DNA of 64,000 bases, from contig NC_013889.1 in NCBI RefSeq assembly GCF_000025545.1, positions 2,535,501 through 2,599,500 of the forward strand, given 5' to 3'. The notes beneath the pieces are model-generated. The model was not told the origin of the DNA. It searched no databases and saw only the letters and a program-made list of their open reading frames with translations. This DNA is from Thioalkalivibrio sp. K90mix (GTDB taxonomy: Bacteria > Pseudomonadota > Gammaproteobacteria > Ectothiorhodospirales > Ectothiorhodospiraceae). The translations under genes were made by a program, and so were the position numbers. Shown here piece by piece: positions 19,278 through 57,119 of the stretch (positions are counted from its first letter, which is position 1; each line of letters begins with the position of its first letter).

Positions 19278-19312
19278 TCCCTCCGGCCGCCGTCGGGGTT
19301 GCGCCCCAGAAC

Positions 19313-19325
19313 GTTATCTTATAAC
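19313..19325. promoter_or_regulatory. Putative Zur operator 1
   Basis: GTTATCTTATAAC matches 11 of 13 positions of the gammaproteobacterial Zur core GTTATAATATAAC. It sits in the wider inverted repeat ACGTTAT-CTT-ATAACGT (19311-19327). It lies about 80 bp upstream of the zinc outer-membrane gene, in the only sizeable gap of the zur-znu segment. Confidence 0.75.
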
Positions 19326-19338
19326 GTGACATCGTCGT

Positions 19339-19351
19339 GTAACGATATAAC
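19339..19351. promoter_or_regulatory. Putative Zur operator 2
   Basis: GTAACGATATAAC matches 10 of 13 positions of the Zur core and lies 26 bp (about 2.5 helical turns) after the first site. Tandem sites would allow cooperative binding; the match is weaker than site 1. Confidence 0.5.
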
Positions 19352-19404
19352 AATTTATTCACGCCGAGGCCTTCGGCGTGTCTATACATGTTTGGGAGTC
19401 CGTC

Positions 19405-20816: not shown

Positions 20817-21743
20817 ATGTCCTTTAGCAAGACTCGCACCCGTATCACCCGGACCCTCGCCGCCGTGGCCTCGGTGGCGGCACTCACCTTCATCCTGCTA
20901 CCCGCGCAGGCAGCCGCCGGACTGAACATCGTGGCCACTACATCCAGCCTCGGTGCCCTGGCCCGCGAGATCGGAGGCGACGAGGCCGAGGTCCGCGTGC
21001 TCGCGCCGCCGGACCGCGACGCACATTACCTGGATGCCCGCCCCAGCTTCATGGCCGCCCTGCGCCGGGCCGACATGCTGCTGGAATTGGGCGCCGGTCT
21101 GGAAGAAGGCTGGCTGCCCGCCGCCCAGCGCGGCGCCAATAACCGTGCAATCAACTCGGGGCAGCCGGGCCACTTCCGCGCGGCCGACAAGGTCGAACTG
21201 CGCCGTTCCATCACCATGGACGGGCCGAACATGGGCCACGTGCACGAGGAGGGCAATCCGCATTTCAATGCCGACCCGTTGCGTATGGCCGAACTCGCCC
21301 TGGCACTGGGACAGCGCATGGGAGAACTGCGGCCGGATCACGCCGAGGCCTTCGTGCAGCGTGCAGAGGCAGCCGCCGAAAGCCTGCGCGAACACGCCGA
21401 GAAGCTGGCCGAGCGCGTGGAGCCTGACCAGCGCATCGTGGTCTACCACGAGGACCTCGACTATCTGGAAGAGTGGCTGCCAGTCGAGATCGTCGGCTAT
21501 CTGGAAGCGGCGCCGGGGATCCCGCCCACCGCGCGCCATCTGCGCAGCCTCGTGGACGATCTCGAAGGCACCGAGGGCACTGTCCTGTACGCCGAGTTCC
21601 AGCCGCCTCGCGGCGCGGAATTCCTGGAACGGAACCTGGGCTGGCCGACGCACGCCGTACCGCTGGATCCGCCGGCGGACTCCGGCCTCGATGGCTACCT
21701 CGAACTGATGAGCACCTGGGCGCAGGCCCTGCCCCAGCGCTGA
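20817..21743 (+). CDS. znuA: Zinc ABC transporter substrate-binding protein ZnuA
   Basis: This 308-residue periplasmic protein has a signal peptide ending PAQAAAG, then the cluster A-I fold: LNIVATTSSLGALAREIGGD, metal-site His in RDAHYLDARPSF, His in EEGNPHFNADPLRM, VVYHEDLDYLEEWL and the C-terminal acidic ligand region (LYAEFQPPRG). A short His pair (GHVHEEGNPH) replaces the longer His loop of E. coli ZnuA. It delivers Zn2+ to ZnuBC. It lies 83 bp after the porin gene in the same orientation. Confidence 0.9.
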   Translation: MSFSKTRTRITRTLAAVASVAALTFILLPAQAAAGLNIVATTSSLGALAREIGGDEAEVRVLAPPDRDAHYLDARPSFMAALRRADMLLELGAGLEEGWLPAAQRGANNRAINSGQPGHFRAADKVELRRSITMDGPNMGHVHEEGNPHFNADPLRMAELALALGQRMGELRPDHAEAFVQRAEAAAESLREHAEKLAERVEPDQRIVVYHEDLDYLEEWLPVEIVGYLEAAPGIPPTARHLRSLVDDLEGTEGTVLYAEFQPPRGAEFLERNLGWPTHAVPLDPPADSGLDGYLELMSTWAQALPQR

Positions 21744-21766
21744 AGAAAGCAGAAGCCGCTGTCACG

Positions 21767-21797
21767 ACGGACCCGGAAAGCCACTTTCCGGGTCCGT
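21767..21797 (+). terminator. Perfect 14-bp hairpin between znuA and znuC
   Basis: ACGGACCCGGAAAG and its reverse complement flank a CCA loop. It is followed by TATCATT, not a clean U-tract. It may act as a partial terminator or an mRNA stabiliser that lets znuA be expressed above znuCB, as binding proteins usually are; this function is inferred. Confidence 0.6.
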
Positions 21798-21832
21798 TAT
21801 CATTGGCCACCGCCCCATTCTTTCGAACCTGC

Positions 21833-22441
21833 ATGCCACCCGAGCCTGTCCCGCCCATCCTGCACTCCCAGTCGGCCCTCCTCGGGTTCGACCGTCCGGT
21901 GATCGGGCCTTTGTCCCTGGAGATCCCGGCAGGTGCCCGCTGGGCCCTGACCGGACCCAATGGGGTGGGCAAATCGCTACTGCTGAAAGCCATCACCGGA
22001 CAGGCCCGCGTTCACGGCGGGCGTTTTGAACTCGCCCCCCGTACGCGACCCAGCCTGCTGGCTCAGGACCACGCCCGCCCGCAGCCCTGGCCCCTGTCTG
22101 GAGACGACTGGCTGCGCGCGATGGGGGCCAGCGTGCCCGAACATGAAGGAGTTCGGGCCCTGCTGAATCGGCGGCTGGACTGCTTGAGCGGCGGTCAGTG
22201 GCAACTTCTGCGTCTGGCCGCCGTGCTGACCAGCCGAGGTGAAGACTCGTCGGCGCAGCGGTTGATCCTGCTGGATGAACCCGCCAACCATCTGGATGCC
22301 GAGGTCCGTGCCGACGCGGTGGAACTGATCAGGGCGGTCCCGGCCGAGACGAGCATGCTGATCACCAGCCACGACGATGAATTCCTGCAGGCGCTCGGCC
22401 TGGAGAACCATCCACTTGCGGAGTACCTGGATGCCGGGTGA
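21833..22441 (+). CDS. znuC: Zinc ABC transporter ATPase ZnuC
   Basis: This 202-residue ABC ATPase has Walker A GPNGVGKSLLLKA, ABC signature LSGGQWQLLRLAAVL, Walker B RLILLDEPANHLDA and the switch His in LITSHDDEFL. It is short compared with E. coli ZnuC (about 250), missing a C-terminal extension. ATG 21833 is in frame and gives a normal N-terminus; the long upstream open frame overlaps znuA and is not used. Its last 11 bp overlap znuB. Confidence 0.9.
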   Translation: MPPEPVPPILHSQSALLGFDRPVIGPLSLEIPAGARWALTGPNGVGKSLLLKAITGQARVHGGRFELAPRTRPSLLAQDHARPQPWPLSGDDWLRAMGASVPEHEGVRALLNRRLDCLSGGQWQLLRLAAVLTSRGEDSSAQRLILLDEPANHLDAEVRADAVELIRAVPAETSMLITSHDDEFLQALGLENHPLAEYLDAG

Positions 22442-23201
22442 CCTGCTGCTGACACCCTTCATTGCCGGCGTGCTCGTCACCATGGTGCTGGCGCTCGCCG
22501 GGGCCGGTCTGTTCCTGCGCGGATCGGTCTGGCAGGCGCTGGCCCTGGGGCAATGGGCAGCCGTGGGCGGGGTTCTCGCCTCGGTCCTGCACTGGCCGGT
22601 GCTGCCCGTGGCGCTGCTGCTGGGTGGCGGGATCATGGTGCTGCTGCAGCGCAGCCGGGATCGGGAACGCCTGCCCCTGGCCGTTTTCCTCGCCGGCCTG
22701 GCGGCGGTCACGCTACTGGCCGCCAACTTTGCTCAGGCCAGCCTGGCGGCCGCTGCCTGGGCCGAAGGCCAGCTCTACTTTGCCGGCCCCAATGAGCTCT
22801 GGGCGGCGACCGGTCTGAGCCTGCTGACCCTCCTGATGGTCCCGGTGCTCCTCCGCGTATGGCTGCATGCGCAGATCGCACCGGATGTGTCGGCGGCAAG
22901 CAGGCCGGCTGTCTGGCAGCATCTCGGCGAAATCGTCTGGCTGGTCGCCGCTATCGTTCTGGGGAGCATGGTCCTGGGACTTCCGGCTGCACTGGCCACC
23001 CTGCTACTGCCGGCCTGGGGTGCAGCCTGGCTCGCACGCAACCTCACCGGGCTGGTGCTCTGGACGCAGGGCATCGCCCTGTTCGGGTTCCTTGTCGCCT
23101 GGACCATCAGCCTGCCGCTGGATCAGCCCTTCGCACCGGTGCTGGTCCTGGTCAACGTCATGCTCGCGCTCGGCGCCCGCCTCGCCGCCATGCTGCGCTG
23201 A
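22431..23201 (+). CDS. znuB: Zinc ABC transporter permease ZnuB
   Basis: This 256-residue integral membrane protein of the ABC-3 permease family has eight to nine hydrophobic segments beginning LLLTPFIAGVLVTMVLALAG. The coupling-region pattern GLFLRGSVWQALALGQWAAVGG is typical. ATG 22431 overlaps the znuC stop by 11 bp, indicating translational coupling. It forms the inner-membrane zinc channel with ZnuC and ZnuA. Confidence 0.88.
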   Translation: MPGDLLLTPFIAGVLVTMVLALAGAGLFLRGSVWQALALGQWAAVGGVLASVLHWPVLPVALLLGGGIMVLLQRSRDRERLPLAVFLAGLAAVTLLAANFAQASLAAAAWAEGQLYFAGPNELWAATGLSLLTLLMVPVLLRVWLHAQIAPDVSAASRPAVWQHLGEIVWLVAAIVLGSMVLGLPAALATLLLPAWGAAWLARNLTGLVLWTQGIALFGFLVAWTISLPLDQPFAPVLVLVNVMLALGARLAAMLR

Positions 23202-23241: not shown

Positions 23242-24102
23242 ATGACATCCAACACCGCCCACTCGTCATCCACCAGTGCGAATGGCACTTCGCCGATTTT
23301 CCAGGCCATCGAGAAGGCGCAGGGCGACCAGCCCTGGGGCAGCTTTCTTGATGCCGGGACGGGTCGCAAGTCCATCGAGTGGATTAGCCGCCTGGATACC
23401 GAGCGCTGGACGGCGGTGACGGCCTCCCAGGAGATGGCGCGCACGACCCGCAAGGCGGCGGGCACGGCGCGGCGCCGGCAAGACCGCATCCTGGTCGGCA
23501 ACTGGATGTCGGATCAGCTTCTGTTCGGTGAACGCTTTGACACGGTGCTGCTGGACTACTTTATCGGGGCCATCGAAGGTTTCGCGCCCTACTGGCAGGA
23601 CCGCGCCCTGCACCGATTGCGGCCGCACGTGGGCGACCGGCTGTATCTGGTGGGCGTCGAACCCTACGTGCTGGTGGAACCGAAAGATGAAGCCGGCGCG
23701 CTCGTGAGGGAGATCGGACGCCTGCGTGACGCCTGCCTGCTGATTGCCGGCAATCGGCCCTATCGCGAATATCCATCATCCTGGGTCATGCGCCAGCTTG
23801 GAATCGCGGGATTCCGGGTTCTGGATGTCCGCTATTTTCCCATCCACTATCGCGAACGGTTCGTCAACGGCCAGCTCGACCTGTGCCTGCGGCAGCTGCC
23901 GCATTTCAGCGACGAGGGTCTGGCCAAGGCCATGCACCACCAGATCGAGGTCCTGCGTGAACGCGCCCTGCCTTTGGCCCGCAGCCAGGAGGGGCTGAAA
24001 CACGGCGCAGACTACCTGATCGTGGCCGAACCGATGGCCGACCGGCATCGCGGCCTGCACGACCCGCTGCAGCCTCATCAGACCCTCCCGAACCCGGAGT
24101 AG
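23242..24102 (+). CDS. Class I SAM-dependent methyltransferase-like protein
   Basis: The 286-residue product has a glycine-rich motif I-like GSFLDAGTGRKSIEWI, followed by TASQEMARTTR, an acidic motif DRILVGNWMSDQLLFG and FDTVLLDYFIGAIEGFAPYW. This order fits a Rossmann methyltransferase, though the substrate is unknown. It follows znuB by 40 bp in the same direction and may be the last gene of the Zur operon, which would tie it to zinc limitation (inference only). Confidence 0.75.
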   Translation: MTSNTAHSSSTSANGTSPIFQAIEKAQGDQPWGSFLDAGTGRKSIEWISRLDTERWTAVTASQEMARTTRKAAGTARRRQDRILVGNWMSDQLLFGERFDTVLLDYFIGAIEGFAPYWQDRALHRLRPHVGDRLYLVGVEPYVLVEPKDEAGALVREIGRLRDACLLIAGNRPYREYPSSWVMRQLGIAGFRVLDVRYFPIHYRERFVNGQLDLCLRQLPHFSDEGLAKAMHHQIEVLRERALPLARSQEGLKHGADYLIVAEPMADRHRGLHDPLQPHQTLPNPE

Positions 24103-24156
24103 CCTCAAGCCGATACCGGCTCACCAAACGGCACACAGCATTACTGACCGAGCATG

Positions 24157-24184
24157 TTGACACCAATACACAGTTGCGTATGAT
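24157..24184 (+). promoter_or_regulatory. Sigma-70 promoter with overlapping Fur-box-like site
   Basis: A perfect -35 TTGACA (24157-24162), a 16-bp spacer and -10 TATGAT (24179-24184). Overlapping the -10 and start is ATGATTCTCATTT (24180-24192), whose reverse complement AAATGAGAATCAT matches the core of the Fur box (AATGAGAATCAT). Iron-bound Fur would occlude RNA polymerase. No protein gene starts downstream on this strand. Confidence 0.65.
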
Positions 24185-24190
24185 TCTCAT

Positions 24191-24306
24191 TTAGATGCGC
24201 AGCCCGGACAGCTGTGTGTCGCCAGGACGAAAGGCGGCTTTCTGCCTTTGGTCTCTCCAACCTCCGTAAGCGTTGCCGCCGGATATGCAATCCGGCGGCT
24301 TTTTTA
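24191..24306 (+). ncRNA. Candidate Fur-regulated small RNA (about 115 nt)
   Basis: The segment runs from the predicted start (7-9 nt after TATGAT) to an intrinsic terminator and contains no convincing ORF with a ribosome site. Length, a strong promoter, an overlapping Fur box and a U-rich terminator are the features of RyhB/PrrF-type iron-sparing RNAs. The internal hairpin AAAGGCGGCTTTCTGCCTTT (24230-24249) offers an unpaired region for pairing. It is antisense to nothing annotated and ends 50 bp before the convergent folE2. It is a prediction from sequence only. Confidence 0.55.
24275..24306 (+). terminator. Strong Rho-independent terminator
   Basis: A 10-bp perfect stem GCCGCCGGAT / ATCCGGCGGC with loop ATGCA is followed by six T residues (24300-24305). 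The U-tract polarity is for the plus strand, so it ends transcription from the 24157 promoter (and any read-through from the methyltransferase gene), not folE2. Confidence 0.88.
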
Positions 24307-24355
24307 TGCATCGTCGTCACCGCCAGGCATGCCGGTCCGCAACGGGCCGACGGCT

Positions 24356-25300
24356 TCAGCGACGGTCGGTCACCCTTCGTTCAACACGGGCGACCGCGTC
24401 ATGCGCATGCAGACTCTCGCGATGGCGAACGTGGATGCGATAGCCGCGGGCGGAGTACTCCGGGCGCAGGGTGCTGTCCAGGCGCCGTACGGCGTCTTCG
24501 CAGAACATCAGGTTACGGCCGTTGGCGAGCGCGAAGGCCTTCTCGTCGACACGCTTCACCGCCGTTTGCAGGGCTGTGCCCAGCGTCTGTTCCACACCAT
24601 CGATCAGATCGGGCAGGGGCAGCGTCGATATCAGCGGATCCAGACCGACCGTAACGGTTGCCTCGCTGCGCTGGCTATGGGGCGTCGCGACAATCCCCTC
24701 GGCCCGGCCCAGCCATTCGCGCACGGTTGCCGCATCCACGGCCGAGCGTGTGAAGTCGCGGTCGAACTGCTCCTGGATCGCCTGCCGCGCCAGGGCGGCG
24801 GAGCAGGGACAGGTGGAGGAATAGCCCACCTGAACCTCCAGTTCCAGGGACACAGCCCCGGACTCGCTGCGTGCAGCGATCCGGAACGGGTAGCGCTTCC
24901 AGCCCGCGGCCGCACTGACCAGGGCCGGCCGTTCCAGCGGCAGCTCCCCGGCAAGACGGACCTCCGCCACGCTGGACAGGCCACCGTGCGAAGCCAGAAA
25001 CGCCTCGAGCACGTTACACAGCCGCGCAACGTCCAGCTCGCGGGACTCCAGCTGCCGCAGGGCCCTGTAGAGCCGTGACATATGGATACCGCGCGCGCCC
25101 GCGTCATCGAGGCTCACCCCCGCGCTGGCCCGGGCGACCACTGGCTGGCCGGTCAGATACAGCGGAAGGGTGATGTCTTCCATACCCACCCAGTCGAGTG
25201 CGGAGGCGTGCGTAGCAGCCGACGCGGCAATATCCGGTAGCGGATCGGTCGCGGAGGTTTCCGTATCCGGTGAGACCGGAGACACACAGGTAGAGGACAT
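24356..25300 (-). CDS. folE2: GTP cyclohydrolase FolE2 (type IB)
   Basis: This 314-residue enzyme makes 7,8-dihydroneopterin triphosphate for folate, replacing zinc-dependent FolE when zinc is scarce; FolE2 can use Mn2+ or Fe2+. Visible: the catalytic Cys region VQVGYSSTCPCSAALARQ, the metal/Glu region, and the C-terminal NLMFCEDAVRRLDSTLR and IHVRHRESLHAHDAVA. ATG 25300 lies about 75 bp from a putative Zur operator shared divergently with dksA2. The location within the zinc island agrees with zinc-sparing use. Confidence 0.94.
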   Translation of the reverse strand: MSSTCVSPVSPDTETSATDPLPDIAASAATHASALDWVGMEDITLPLYLTGQPVVARASAGVSLDDAGARGIHMSRLYRALRQLESRELDVARLCNVLEAFLASHGGLSSVAEVRLAGELPLERPALVSAAAGWKRYPFRIAARSESGAVSLELEVQVGYSSTCPCSAALARQAIQEQFDRDFTRSAVDAATVREWLGRAEGIVATPHSQRSEATVTVGLDPLISTLPLPDLIDGVEQTLGTALQTAVKRVDEKAFALANGRNLMFCEDAVRRLDSTLRPEYSARGYRIHVRHRESLHAHDAVARVERRVTDRR

Positions 25301-25376
25301 AAGACACCTTGTTGCAGGCGGGTCGACCCCATCACAGGACGGTGGCCGATCCGTGTTGTCGGGGCTCAATCGAAAC

Positions 25377-27775: not shown

Positions 27776-27989
27776 CGTTTGTCTCCGGTATCGCGCGGGA
27801 CCTGCCCCACTGAAAGCTGCAAGCAGCAACCTCCCGGGCGCGAGGGGCCGGAGTCGCCGCTCTCCCCCATGGCAGCCCCAGAGGCGGACCTGTGTTGTTC
27901 ACAAAAAGCCGGAAAGCCACTTGACCCGTGCGTCGTCTTTCGTCAACCTTCAATTGCGAACGCTTCTCATTTCCTTTAGGAGGTCTCGA

Positions 27990-28442
27990 ATGTTCACCCT
28001 GGATGCCTGGCTGGAACGCACCCACCCTTCGCTGCGGATCGTCGACAGCGCCTCACGCCGCGTCATCGCCCAGTGGCAGGGAGACGATCTGCACCACCTG
28101 TTCGAATCCGGCACGATCGCGCCGGACGAATGCTGCGGACCACGCTCCCGGAAATCCGAACATGAAACGATTCGCGAGCTCATACTGGAAGCATGTCTGG
28201 AAGGGCTTACCGTGTGCCGGCGCAATCGGCCGCGCGTCTCACAGTGCGCAGCTTCGGCGCCGTCTCAGTGCCCGCTCGAACAGCTCGCGACCAGTGAAGC
28301 ACCACACCAACCCGACGGCCGGTCCCGAAACCTCCAGCTCATTGGCTCGACCCGAAGCGTTCCGGTCCGCCACAAGGCCCATGATATTGCGCAACGACCA
28401 TCGTTGCGCTTAGCGTTCCGAAAATGCCCTTCCCCCTACTGA
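27990..28442 (+). CDS. Hypothetical protein with strong ribosome site
   Basis: This product was not recognised. ATG 27990 is preceded by AGGAGG at 27978-27983, the best Shine-Dalgarno nearby, and the first 80 codons (MFTLDAWLERTHPSLRIVDS onward) have ordinary composition. Beyond about residue 80 the sequence looks less protein-like and its 3' part overlaps a palindrome and the promoter region of the next gene, so the real end could be earlier through a frameshift. A Fur-box-like AACGCTTCTCATTTCC lies just upstream (about 27959-27974). Function unknown. Confidence 0.45.
   Translation: MFTLDAWLERTHPSLRIVDSASRRVIAQWQGDDLHHLFESGTIAPDECCGPRSRKSEHETIRELILEACLEGLTVCRRNRPRVSQCAASAPSQCPLEQLATSEAPHQPDGRSRNLQLIGSTRSVPVRHKAHDIAQRPSLRLAFRKCPSPY
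28389..28409. promoter_or_regulatory. Perfect palindrome, candidate WYL-regulator operator
   Basis: GCGCAACGA and its reverse complement TCGTTGCGC flank a CCA centre (9-bp arms, perfect). It ends 37 bp before the GTG start of the WYL-domain regulator. Location and dyad symmetry suggest an autoregulatory operator. Confidence 0.6.
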
Positions 28443-39797: not shown

Positions 39798-42700
39798 GTT
39801 AGCTGCCGCACAGGCAGCTCAGAAATCTATAACTTTTGTGTGGAACTCCCTAACTGTGTTAGCTGCCGCACAGGCAGCTCAGAAACTGAGATCAGCGTCC
39901 CTGAGATTAGCGCCCCCGTTAGCTGCCGCACAGGCAGCTCAGAAATATACTTGGAGTTTTTCAACGATTACTCAACCGTTAGCTGCCGCACAGGCAGCTC
40001 AGAAAAGTACCAGCCAAAGTATTTTCTGCTGGAAAATGTTAGCTGCCGCACAGGCAGCTCAGAAAATGACTGACGAAGCTACTGAGATGCTCATTAAGTT
40101 AGCTGCCGCACAGGCAGCTCAGAAACGATCGGCCGACCGTCGATTCGGGCGAGGAACGTTAGCTGCCGCACAGGCAGCTCAGAAATAATGGCTGGGCGAC
40201 CGACAAAGTACAACGAAGTTAGCTGCCGCACAGGCAGCTCAGAAAATCCGCGCGCGCAGCGCCAACCTGCGTGAGGGGTTAGCTGCCGCACAGGCAGCTC
40301 AGAAATTGAAGATGGCCACCACGAACATGCCAATCGAGTTAGCTGCCGCACAGGCAGCTCAGAAATGGATCAAATCAGGTTCCGTGAAGAGCTGACCGTT
40401 AGCTGCCGCACAGGCAGCTCAGAAACCGTCTCCCCACGGGGCTTTTTTTCGTCTAGAGTTAGCTGCCGCACAGGCAGCTCAGAAATGACCCGTACCGATG
40501 CGCAGATATTCGCGGGAGTTAGCTGCCGCACAGGCAGCTCAGAAATCAGACGAGCGCTGCGGTCAGTGCGACCATGGGTTAGCTGCCGCACAGGCAGCTC
40601 AGAAACCAGAGATTAGCGCCCCTGAGATTAGCGTCCCGTTAGCTGCCGCACAGGCAGCTCAGAAAAAACAGAGCCCCGGCAATCAACAGCACCACACGTT
40701 AGCTGCCGCACAGGCAGCTCAGAAAACACCGTCAGGCTGCTCCACTTGCATCTCCAGGTTAGCTGCCGCACAGGCAGCTCAGAAATCACGGAGCTGGCGG
40801 ACGCTCGCGCCGGTATCGTTAGCTGCCGCACAGGCAGCTCAGAAATCAGGGGCAGCCGGTGCGGCAGGAGCCTCAGGGTTAGCTGCCGCACAGGCAGCTC
40901 AGAAAACGAACAGACAAGCACCGTCCTGCGTGACCTCGTTAGCTGCCGCACAGGCAGCTCAGAAAATGGGGGAGCCACTGTTGGCGCTGATAGCCTTGTT
41001 AGCTGCCGCACAGGCAGCTCAGAAAAATCGTCACGACCGAACATGCCACCGGGGTCAGTTAGCTGCCGCACAGGCAGCTCAGAAAGCACACCGTGGACAT
41101 GCAGATGAACCCGGTGAGTTAGCTGCCGCACAGGCAGCTCAGAAAACGGATGTCCGGGCCCTGGTCGACGTGCATGAGTTAGCTGCCGCACAGGCAGCTC
41201 AGAAATACACGGCGCAGGAGCTCCTGGAGGACTGGGCGTTAGCTGCCGCACAGGCAGCTCAGAAAAGCTCCAGCTCAAAGCGATCCGCGATCTGCTCGTT
41301 AGCTGCCGCACAGGCAGCTCAGAAATTGAGCCGTCTGCGCGAGCGGCTGCTGGAGCGGTTAGCTGCCGCACAGGCAGCTCAGAAAACCCGCCCCGGTGAC
41401 TACTGGTACCACATGGTGTTAGCTGCCGCACAGGCAGCTCAGAAAACCATCACCGACAGCGACACCCGCGCCATCCCGTTAGCTGCCGCACAGGCAGCTC
41501 AGAAAACCAGATCCGCCGTCTTCGAACGCCCGGACACGTTAGCTGCCGCACAGGCAGCTCAGAAATCATCCAGGCGCACCGCCTGGCCCGCCGTGGCGTT
41601 AGCTGCCGCACAGGCAGCTCAGAAAACATCACCGGGCTCGACCTGGTGGGCGAGACGGTTAGCTGCCGCACAGGCAGCTCAGAAAGACCGCGACCGCTAC
41701 ACCGGCGTGATCGCCCAGTTAGCTGCCGCACAGGCAGCTCAGAAACGAGGTGCGGGCAGACTGCGACACCGCCGAGGGTTAGCTGCCGCACAGGCAGCTC
41801 AGAAAACCCAGGGGTCGCGGATGGGCACCGTATCCCCGTTAGCTGCCGCACAGGCAGCTCAGAAAGTCCGAGGCCGCCAGCTCCGGCGGCTCGCTGCGTT
41901 AGCTGCCGCACAGGCAGCTCAGAAAGATCCACCAGGTCCAGTACAACGCTCGCTTGCGTTAGCTGCCGCACAGGCAGCTCAGAAAACCCCGCGACCGTGT
42001 ACGTCACCCCGCGAGAGGTTAGCTGCCGCACAGGCAGCTCAGAAAAGCTCGTTCGGCAGCATCCCCGCCATGCGCTGGTTAGCTGCCGCACAGGCAGCTC
42101 AGAAAAGCATGGACATCATGCGCGAGGTGTCCGACTCGTTAGCTGCCGCACAGGCAGCTCAGAAAACCTGATCCAGCCCGGAGCGCCGGCGCAGCTCGTT
42201 AGCTGCCGCACAGGCAGCTCAGAAACCCTCGATTGCGGGCCGTTGGCGAGGCTGGCGGTTAGCTGCCGCACAGGCAGCTCAGAAAAGCCCTCGCACCACC
42301 TCGCCTCGCCTCCTCGCGTTAGCTGCCGCACAGGCAGCTCAGAAATCTCCCAGTGGTGCAACGAGGCGCGCCGCGTTGTTAGCTGCCGCACAGGCAGCTC
42401 AGAAAACCACATCGTTGCGCAACCCCAGGATGGTCCCGTTAGCTGCCGCACAGGCAGCTCAGAAAACCCTGCGCCGGAGCGACGGCGACCAGCACCGGTT
42501 AGCTGCCGCACAGGCAGCTCAGAAAGATGCGCAGGGCGAAGGTGCCGCGCGGGCCTTGTTAGCTGCCGCACAGGCAGCTCAGAAAACCGGAACAGACCCC
42601 GCGCGATCGTCCGATCCGTTAGCTGCCGCACAGGCAGCTCAGAAACATCGCCCGACGAATCAGACCGAACACGACCAGTTAGCTGCCGCACAGGCAGCTC

Positions 42701-44446
42701 AGAAATCGGGAAAGGTACAGCCGAAAACGTTATCCAGGTTAGCTGCCGCACAGGCAGCTCAGAAAGAATCCGCCAACGATTTCGGCGTCGGCGAAGCGTT
42801 AGCTGCCGCACAGGCAGCTCAGAAAATCTCGAAGGCGACCACGGCGACGTTGCCCTGGTTAGCTGCCGCACAGGCAGCTCAGAAAGTTTTTTTCGGCGAT
42901 CCGCTCATACCCCAAAACGTTAGCTGCCGCACAGGCAGCTCAGAAATTGAGCTCGACGGCCAGGCGGCCGTTGGTGGCGTTAGCTGCCGCACAGGCAGCT
43001 CAGAAACACGTGAAAGCCGCCGATGCGGCGGGTAGTTTGTTAGCTGCCGCACAGGCAGCTCAGAAAAACCTGATCGGCACGGTCGAGAATGGCCAGAAGT
43101 TAGCTGCCGCACAGGCAGCTCAGAAACTTCAGCTCAGCGGCAAGGCCCGACAAGACGAGTTAGCTGCCGCCCAGGCAGCTCAGAAATGGGCGCCTCCCCT
43201 GTGCTTGCGCCCCCGACCGTTAGCTGCCGCACAGGCAGCTCAGAAAAATGGTGCAACGCGGCAGAACGACAGCAAGCGGTTAGCTGCCGCACAGGCAGCT
43301 CAGAAATGCCACTGGTCGGGATCTAAACGCGACGCGAGGTTAGCTGCCGCACAGGCAGCTCAGAAAATTGGCTCAGGACAGGCAGTGGGACACCTATCGT
43401 TAGCTGCCGCACAGGCAGCTCAGAAAAGGGTGCGCCGGCGCAGCATGGCCTTCAGGTGGTTAGCTGCCGCACAGGCAGCTCAGAAACCCTCGATTGCGGG
43501 CCGCTGGCGCGGCTGGCGGTTAGCTGCCGCACAGGCAGCTCAGAAATTCCGGCGTACCAGGACTACACCGCCCGCGCCGTTAGCTGCCGCACAGGCAGCT
43601 CAGAAAATGATCGCGCGGGCCGACTCCGGTGATACCGAGTTAGCTGCCGCACAGGCAGCTCAGAAATCGTCGCTGCGCTTGATCGCTTGATCGCTTCGGT
43701 TAGCTGCCGCACAGGCAGCTCAGAAAGAGGGGGATACGCTCACTGCGATCGCTCGCACGTTAGCTGCCGCACAGGCAGCTCAGAAAAAGATTCATCGCGA
43801 TCCGCGCTTTCCTACCGGGTTAGCTGCCGCACAGGCAGCTCAGAAACGAGTTTGTGCGCTGGCTGTCGGAACAGATGCGTTAGCTGCCGCACAGGCAGCT
43901 CAGAAAAAGACCATGCTGGATTCCTGCAATGGACTGATGTTAGCTGCCGCACAGGCAGCTCAGAAAAAGCCAGATCTGCGTGGCGCTGCTGCACGGGTGT
44001 TAGCTGCCGCACAGGCAGCTCAGAAAACCTCGGTCACCACCTCGATGCCGAACGGATCGTTAGCTGCCGCACAGGCAGCTCAGAAACGGATGCGCTCGCG
44101 CAGCTCCGGCAGTGAAGCGTTAGCTGCCGCACAGGCAGCTCAGAAAATGTACGTCGACGCCAAGGGCGTGAGCTTCTTGTTAGCTGCCGCACAGGCAGCT
44201 CAGAAAACCGACGCCCACCGCTCCGAAAGCAGCCTGTCGTTAGCTGCCGCACAGGCAGCTCAGAAAACCAACGGGAACCCGCTGTTTCATTACGCCTTGT
44301 TAGCTGCCGCACAGGCAGCTCAGAAATACGGTCGGCGGTTCGGTCCGGACCTGAAGCCGTTAGCTGCCGCACAGGCAGCTCAGAAAGCCCAGGCCGCCCT
44401 TGGCCCCTACCTGCCGGAGTTAGCTGCCTGTGCGGCAGCTAACTGA
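39798..44446 (+). CRISPR. Type I-F CRISPR array, 78 repeats / 77 spacers
   Basis: The repeat is 28 nt: GTTAGCTGCC, loop GCACA, then GGCAGCTCAGAAA. The stem is 7 bp (AGCTGCC/GGCAGCT), longer than the usual 5 bp of I-F repeats. Repeats start every 60 nt from 39798 to 42858 (52 repeats), then one 61-nt step, then every 60 nt from 42919 to 44359 (25 repeats) and a degenerate terminal repeat at 44419-44446. Spacers are 32 nt except spacer 52 (42886-42918, 33 nt). All repeats are identical except the one at 43159 (A to C in the loop, 43171) and the last. The leader is at the cas6f side. Open frames across it are by-products of the 60-nt period. Confidence 0.99.
44419..44446 (+). repeat. Degenerate terminal repeat with inverted loop
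   Basis: It begins as the canonical repeat (GTTAGCTGCC) but the loop is TGTGC, the reverse complement of the normal GCACA, and the right arm is GGCAGCTAAC instead of GGCAGCTCAG. The result is a perfect 10-bp hairpin. Its last 22 nt of palindrome are the exact reverse complement of the first 22 nt of a normal repeat. Confidence 0.9.
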
Positions 44447-56681: not shown

Positions 56682-57119
56682 ATGTCTGCTACATCTGACA
56701 ATCCGAATCTGCTGGACGTCGACGACGCCCGCGCGTTGCTGCGCGAACACACGATCTCTCCGACGGAGCAGCGCGTGGAGATTGCACGCGTAATGTTCGC
56801 GCGTCATCAGCACCTGAGCGCCGAACAAATCCTCGGCCGCCTGGTGCAGCATTCGTCGCGCGTCTCCAAGGCCACGGTCTACAACACGCTCAAGCTGTTC
56901 GCAGAGAAGGGCCTGGTGCGCGAGGTCGTGATCGACCCGACCAAGCTTTTCTACGACTCCAACCTGAATCCGCACCACCACCTGTTCCACACCGACACCG
57001 GCGAGCTGGAAGACGTCGATCCCGCACGGGTCGATATCTCGCACCTGCCCCCGCTGCCGGAAGGCAAAGAGCTGCTGGGTGTGGACGTGATTATTCGGGT
57101 CAGCGAGCGCACGGCCTGA
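56682..57119 (+). CDS. Fur-family regulator, Irr-like
   Basis: This 145-residue product has a winged helix (SPTEQRVEIARVMFARHQHLSAEQILGRL ... KATVYNTLKLFAEKGLVREV) and the dimerisation domain with LNPHHHLFHTDTGELEDVD. The His triplet followed by a D-x-G-E pattern is typical of Irr (heme-responsive, iron regulator). No CxxC zinc pairs, unlike Zur at 18.3 kb. Upstream ORF extension crosses the tRNA-Gly gene and is excluded; ATG 56682 is used. It sits between two tRNA genes. Confidence 0.82.
   Translation: MSATSDNPNLLDVDDARALLREHTISPTEQRVEIARVMFARHQHLSAEQILGRLVQHSSRVSKATVYNTLKLFAEKGLVREVVIDPTKLFYDSNLNPHHHLFHTDTGELEDVDPARVDISHLPPLPEGKELLGVDVIIRVSERTA

Follow-up and report, generated by a model that had tools for sequence, protein, structure and literature searches.

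Does the short intergenic segment between folE2 and the gene that follows znuB in Thioalkalivibrio sp. K90mix encode an iron-responsive small RNA, and is its position inside a zinc-starvation island of any consequence? The window, i.e., the whole 64,000-nucleotide stretch of DNA that was analyzed, is part of contig C1 of the 2.99-Mb genome (G000). The element is a conserved, free-standing predicted transcription unit of the genus Thioalkalivibrio (Table 1), and we consider it probable, with considerable room for doubt, that it encodes a genus-specific, Fur-repressed, trans-acting small RNA (sRNA).

Table 1. Predicted features of the sRNA locus and its surroundings (window coordinates).
Feature	Position	Strand	Basis or remark
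Two Zur-type boxes before the outer-membrane-protein and znu genes	19312..19352		Motif search
znuA, znuC (assigned by eye), znuB	20817..23201	+	ZnuA and ABC-3 Pfam matches
sRNA promoter, TTGACA-16-TATGAT	24157..24184	+	Sequence match; -35 and -10 boxes kept
Fur-type palindrome TGCGTATGATTCTCA (reverse TGAGAATCATACGCA) over the -10 box	24175..24189		Pattern search in G000 and G005
Predicted sRNA, ~115 nt	24191..24306	+	Fold and conserved copies; ends inferred
Hairpin 1	24194..24220	+	10 pairs, 4 changed on both sides
Hairpin 2	24225..24254	+	10 consensus pairs, 1 changed on both sides
Conserved GTCTCTCCAACCTCCG, mostly unpaired, anti-Shine-Dalgarno-like; proposed seed	24251..24266	+	Exact in 11/14 copies
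Intrinsic terminator (helix 3)	24275..24305	+	10-pair stem (24275-24299), then T6
folE2, convergent neighbor	24356..25369	-	PF02649, NF010200
PA4570-family gene with its own Fur-type site (27955-27969)	27955..28442	+	NF050178, 5e-15, below cut-off

Promoter, terminator and extent of the unit

The original prediction had described a near-consensus promoter followed about 115 nt later by a strong terminator, and both descriptions hold. The promoter matches 11 of the 12 consensus bases and is the sole sigma-70-type site between positions 22000 and 27000 (mean of 0.4 in shuffled sequences), and the terminator is the strongest among the four found in the scan (mean of 2.0 in shuffled sequences). 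The ends of the RNA were placed from the sequence and from the point where conservation stops. Mean ungapped identity among nine representative copies is high in the -35 hexamer (89%) and in the region of the -10 box and palindrome (85%), lower in the spacer between them (43%), and lowest in the 60 bases ahead of the -35 box (33%) and past the terminator (28%). The likeness among copies is confined to the unit, from the -35 box to the terminator, and the flanks are unlike. A short noncoding unit with a promoter and an intrinsic terminator of its own, which is characteristic of the Fur-controlled sRNA class, is predicted here.

Distribution of the copies

Conservation of positions 24191-24306, which had been proposed as a check, was confirmed by 14 copies of the sRNA in 12 of the 30 genomes of the genus (11/23 among the good-quality genomes). 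Two copies each were found in G001, where they lie on different contigs, and in G025, where they are 3.7 kb apart. A DNA search of 58 genomes (E ≤ 0.1) produced matches in 16, and 11 genomes (13 places) were judged real after the removal of 11 of the 24 rows, namely antisense terminator arms and short or terminator-only matches. The covariance model built from 12 copies and run against the 30 genomes of the genus listed 13 at E ≤ 0.01, of which 12 were kept, including a new copy in G013 (52.8 bits); G011 and the second places of G004, G022, and G025 were left out as another 3'UTR element, described below. No kept copy was obtained by this search in 18 of the 30 genomes, and the sRNA was found in none of the 17 other genomes of the order (a single weak match in G060, confined to the terminator, was left out). 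The named sequence records with the same RNA comprise seven stretches with eight matches, all from Thioalkalivibrio, a set from which the genome of the window itself may have been omitted.

Secondary structure and the open C/U-rich stretch

The predicted fold of the G000 copy has an energy of -52.2 kcal/mol (z -4.2). The three helices of the 12-copy alignment comprise 30 pairs that are paired in 96.1% of cells, and changes on both sides were observed at nine pairs, 4 of the 10 pairs of helix 3 being among them; the shuffled alignments had a mean of 1.7, with 0 of 500 as high, and slid versions gave 0-4. The three hairpins are backed by these paired changes. In the G000 fold the unpaired part of GTCTCTCCAACCTCCG begins at 24255, and minimum-energy folding leaves its 3' part open in 7 of the 8 relatives folded. 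The G019 copy has a different fold around the seed, and the centroid fold of the second G025 copy departs from the others. Two anti-Shine-Dalgarno motifs are resembled by UCUCUCC and ACCUCCGU.

Another hairpin/terminator element occurs in G004, G022, G025, and G011 (L043 and L044, 1501-1608; L045, 1501-1586; L040, 97-178). It shares the 11-mer GTCTCTCCAAC with the sRNA, continues with GACTGTACCCATTG, and lies downstream of a conserved gene that has no Pfam or NCBIfam match in the one copy tested. It may be a 3'UTR sRNA whose seed is related to that of the present one.

A Fur-type palindrome at the promoter

A Fur-box core had been claimed across the -10 box; the palindrome stood, whereas the likeness to the textbook site proved ordinary. 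The textbook Fur box is a 19-mer, of which the site matches 12 positions, and 45 windows in these 64 kb reach at least 11, so that scoring against this 19-mer is uninformative and lends the Fur box no support. The 15-base palindrome TGMGAATNATTCKCA was instead suggested by comparing the sRNA copies with the site before bfr. The sRNA site is the best match to TGMGAATNATTCKCA in both G000 and G005 (one mismatch, all others having two), a fit that is not independent, as the sRNA copies themselves contributed to the motif. The palindrome spans the -10 box in all 14 copies, 10 of which fit TGMGAATNATWCKCA exactly and 4 with one mismatch. More independent evidence is provided by the G013 copy, since it was found by the model of the RNA alone and has the promoter and a palindrome fitting TGMGAATNATWCKCA without mismatch. 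The palindrome arms change in balance, to TGAG..CTCA in G027 and to TGCG..CGCA in G025 and G013. A Fur box at the promoter, likewise characteristic of the Fur-controlled sRNA class, is thus present as a sequence motif.

Genome-wide, TGMGAATNATTCKCA was found at 11 places in G000 and 8 in G005, compared with 3 and 1, respectively, for the reversed-pattern control. The context was determined for 8 of the 10 other places in G000, two on contig C2 being left out. Four are at iron-linked genes, i.e., bfd, bfr (followed by a TonB receptor), erpA, and the PA4570-family gene; one lies between thioredoxin-like and argC-like genes and one between ABC-type and magnesium-transporter-like genes (names ending in "-like" assigned by eye), and two fall inside frames. 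Two of the seven other places in G005 are iron-linked (erpA and the PA4570-family gene), the rest having no iron link, and bfd and bfr are absent from the G005 matches at two mismatches. With two mismatches, the pattern TGATAATNATTATCA has a single match in G000, which falls inside a frame, no match in G005, and four matches in G025, where the three looked at include one at erpA and two inside frames. In G000, G005, and G025 the erpA palindrome stands right before the Shine-Dalgarno sequence (L087, L084, and L080, near 1501). Three FUR-family genes were found in G000: one, of the Zur type, belongs to the zinc island, another lies elsewhere in the genome, and the third is located at window positions 56763-57029 between two tRNA genes.

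The zinc island and the placement of the copies

The claimed zinc-starvation island was recovered in substance. It begins with zur (the Zur-type FUR gene), a UDG-like gene, two Zur-type boxes, a gene for a His-rich outer-membrane-type protein with no family match, znuA, znuC, and the ABC-3 permease gene znuB, and continues with a gene without a family match, the sRNA, the reversed folE2, and a further Zur-type box, followed by a dksA homolog, zigA, DUF1826, and the PA4570-family gene. The name "methyltransferase", given earlier to the gene upstream of the sRNA, finds no backing in Pfam or NCBIfam, neither of which has a family that matches it. The three Zur-type boxes of the window lie at 19312, 19338, and 25376; none was found at the sRNA promoter (24100-24310), which does not place the sRNA in the Zur regulon.

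The Fur-type site of the PA4570-family gene is present in G000, G005, and G025 and constitutes a second iron-type signal inside the zinc island. In Pseudomonas, PA4570 is lower in high iron, and control by Fur and PrrF has been proposed for it (PMC8534726, in excerpt). Elsewhere in the window, a long CRISPR array with CRISPR-DR4 repeats every 60 bases occupies positions 39798-44386.

Eight copies of the sRNA lie before folE2, those of G000, G026, G005, G022, G004, and G019 and the first copies of G001 and G025, the last also being located after metE. The second G001 copy and those of G023 and G027 follow metE without folE2; that of G027 is still within the zinc island and has a TonB haemin-type receptor gene on its 3' side, with a weak palindrome (≤3 mismatches) between. 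The second G025 copy is located between DUF1826 and the PA4570-family gene, and the copies of G007 and G013 between the UDG-like and outer-membrane-type genes. Altogether, 12 of the 14 copies are next to zinc-island genes, in three different positions within the island, and the neighbors seen for the second G001 copy and G023 are metE and transposase-like genes only. A link between iron and zinc is suggested by this location, which is its whole basis, though one that recurs across species.

Candidate targets

The extended target complement CGGAGGTTGGAGAG was found at 19 places, including the sRNA itself, versus 46 for the control; the other 18 all fall inside frames according to an ORF heuristic, and none precedes a gene. 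The pattern CGGAGGTN{3,10}ATG occurs at 55 places in G000 versus 29 for the control. Filtering by length and GC3 left 32 rows, with many interior frames among them. Two iron-linked genes whose starts carry CGGAGGT, HiPIP (UACGGAGGU) and DUF3501 (ACGGAGGU, then GAGA), were picked from these rows by eye, so that the selection is no measure of enrichment.

The DUF3501 gene lies downstream of a rubrerythrin gene and a Cys-rich-domain gene, and the 4 genomes in which it was found, of 7 tried at positions guessed from synteny, all retain its leader ACGGAGGT; in G025 the aligned start is preceded by an additional ATG CAG. A HiPIP gene is present in 20 of the 30 genomes of the genus, the leaders of G007 and G011 being unreadable. 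ACGGAGG precedes it in 10/10 readable sRNA-bearing genomes and in 3/8 sRNA-less genomes. The remaining five sRNA-less genomes carry a different HiPIP type, and relatedness therefore explains the co-occurrence of ACGGAGG with the sRNA. Both genes came out on top in a duplex ranking of 79 starts, which is biased, as both had been pre-selected. HiPIP and DUF3501 are weak, statistically unsupported candidate targets, whose predicted pairings cannot be told apart from the usual conservation of Shine-Dalgarno sequences.

Comparison with known iron-responsive sRNAs

No Rfam sRNA model matched the window at gathering scores, and the seven matches obtained in 24100-24360 at E up to 5 are all far below gathering scores and include none of RyhB, PrrF, or NrrF. 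Of the claimed RyhB/PrrF design, the promoter, the Fur-type palindrome, and the terminator were found, whereas membership in a known Rfam family was not. The predicted RNA resembles RyhB and PrrF in design and has no detectable descent from them.

The two PrrF copies of Pseudomonas sit side by side. PrrF1 and PrrF2 share with the Thioalkalivibrio element a Fur-type box at the sRNA promoter, a terminator of their own and, in some genomes (G001 and G025), the presence of two copies. In contrast, the two copies found here are widely separated in G001 and 3.7 kb from each other in G025, and the Thioalkalivibrio RNA is without an Rfam match and located in a zinc island. Enterobacterial RyhB is likewise a structured RNA of ~100 nt with a Fur box at its promoter, a terminator, and presumed use of Hfq, but the open stretch of the Thioalkalivibrio RNA, which also lacks an Rfam match to it, is anti-Shine-Dalgarno-like. 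In both RyhB and PrrF the Fur-type box stands directly at the sRNA promoter (PMC7377471, in excerpt). According to the same excerpt, BrrF of Burkholderia, an iron-linked sRNA that also lies directly 3' of a same-strand gene, is processed from the hemP mRNA and lacks a Fur box of its own, whereas the predicted promoter and Fur-type box in Thioalkalivibrio belong to the sRNA itself. RusT of Caulobacter, an iron-starvation sRNA of similar length (118 nt), differs in having no Fur box and being driven by NtrYX (PMC11005374, in excerpt). Intergenic regions of Thioalkalivibrio were screened in PMC11109978. Searches of the literature on Thioalkalivibrio small RNAs and Ectothiorhodospiraceae Fur sRNAs gave no description of the RNA in the available passages of PMC11109978 and PMC8092127; the supplementary lists of PMC11109978 may hold it. 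By likeness of design, the element would be a Fur-controlled sRNA in an unusual place.

Alternative explanations

The RNA could be mainly the 3' end of an upstream mRNA (of the zinc operon or metE), either a processed 3'UTR sRNA, in the way that BrrF derives from the hemP mRNA, or a mere operon terminator, with the internal promoter being secondary. The unit is on the same strand as, and just 3' of, a gene in 14/14 copies; the metE stop codon TGA falls within the -35 box in 4/4 metE-linked copies (L006, L017, L009, and L008); and the sole other plus-strand terminator-like site between 18300 and 24320 in G000 is a weak five-pair one at 23815, inside the preceding gene. However, the -35 box, the -10 box, and the palindrome are conserved although the upstream genes differ, and we regard this explanation as unlikely. 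We give just as little credence to a real sRNA that is constitutive or answers to another regulator, the palindrome merely extending the -10 box. Since the palindrome includes that box, its conservation is partly due to the promoter, and it is known from sequence alone, with an ordinary textbook Fur score; yet the conservation extends beyond the box, the arms change in balance between copies (G027; G025 and G013), the same motif occurs at iron genes, and Zur-type boxes are missing from the promoter.

A cis-antisense RNA to the 3' end of folE2 is very improbable: the gene is convergent and only 50 bases away in G000 and its relatives, but the copies of G023, G027, G007, and G013 and the second copies of G001 and G025 have no folE2 neighbor. 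Even less credible is a small-protein gene. The original statement that the segment holds no ORF was too strict, as a 24-codon frame starts with an ATG at 24195, four bases into the RNA, and stops directly after CCTCCG; it is open in G000, G026, G022, G004, and the first G001 copy. Nevertheless, the ATG is missing in 9 of the 14 copies and indels break the frame in other copies, so that no reading frame is conserved within the RNA. The conserved unit, its structure, and the palindrome across several settings, together with the motif at iron genes, make a candidate iron-regulated sRNA the best reading.

Proposed mechanism and biological meaning

In the proposed model of the Fur-repressed sRNA, Fur bound over the -10 box would keep the gene silent when iron is present, and as iron falls the ~115-nt RNA would be made from its own promoter and end at its own terminator. 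The two hairpins and the terminator would leave the C/U-rich UCUCCAACCUCCGU open for pairing with the Shine-Dalgarno regions of chosen mRNAs, blocking their translation, probably with the help of Hfq (an hfq gene is present in the genome). Blocking of ribosome binding is the likeliest mode, because UCUCUCC and ACCUCCGU look anti-Shine-Dalgarno. As with RyhB, PrrF, and NrrF, the most plausible targets would be mRNAs that encode dispensable iron proteins. The home of the RNA in the zinc island may point to coordination of the iron and zinc starvation responses.

More tentatively, and as a doubtful extension, the RNA might integrate signals from two metals: iron starvation would induce it from its own Fur-controlled promoter, and zinc starvation would yield it as the 3' end of the Zur-controlled zinc operon. 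If so, a shortage of zinc, under which zinc-free isozymes such as FolE2 come into use, would also trigger iron sparing, and the presence of the RNA at three points of the zinc island would be selected rather than accidental.

If the favored reading of a Fur-repressed sRNA is true, a soda-lake lineage gains an iron-starvation sRNA, and this kind of regulation may have originated independently, because no relation to known sRNAs is detectable. Its recurrent home in the zinc island would then offer a concrete, testable case of coupling between iron and zinc starvation via RNA.
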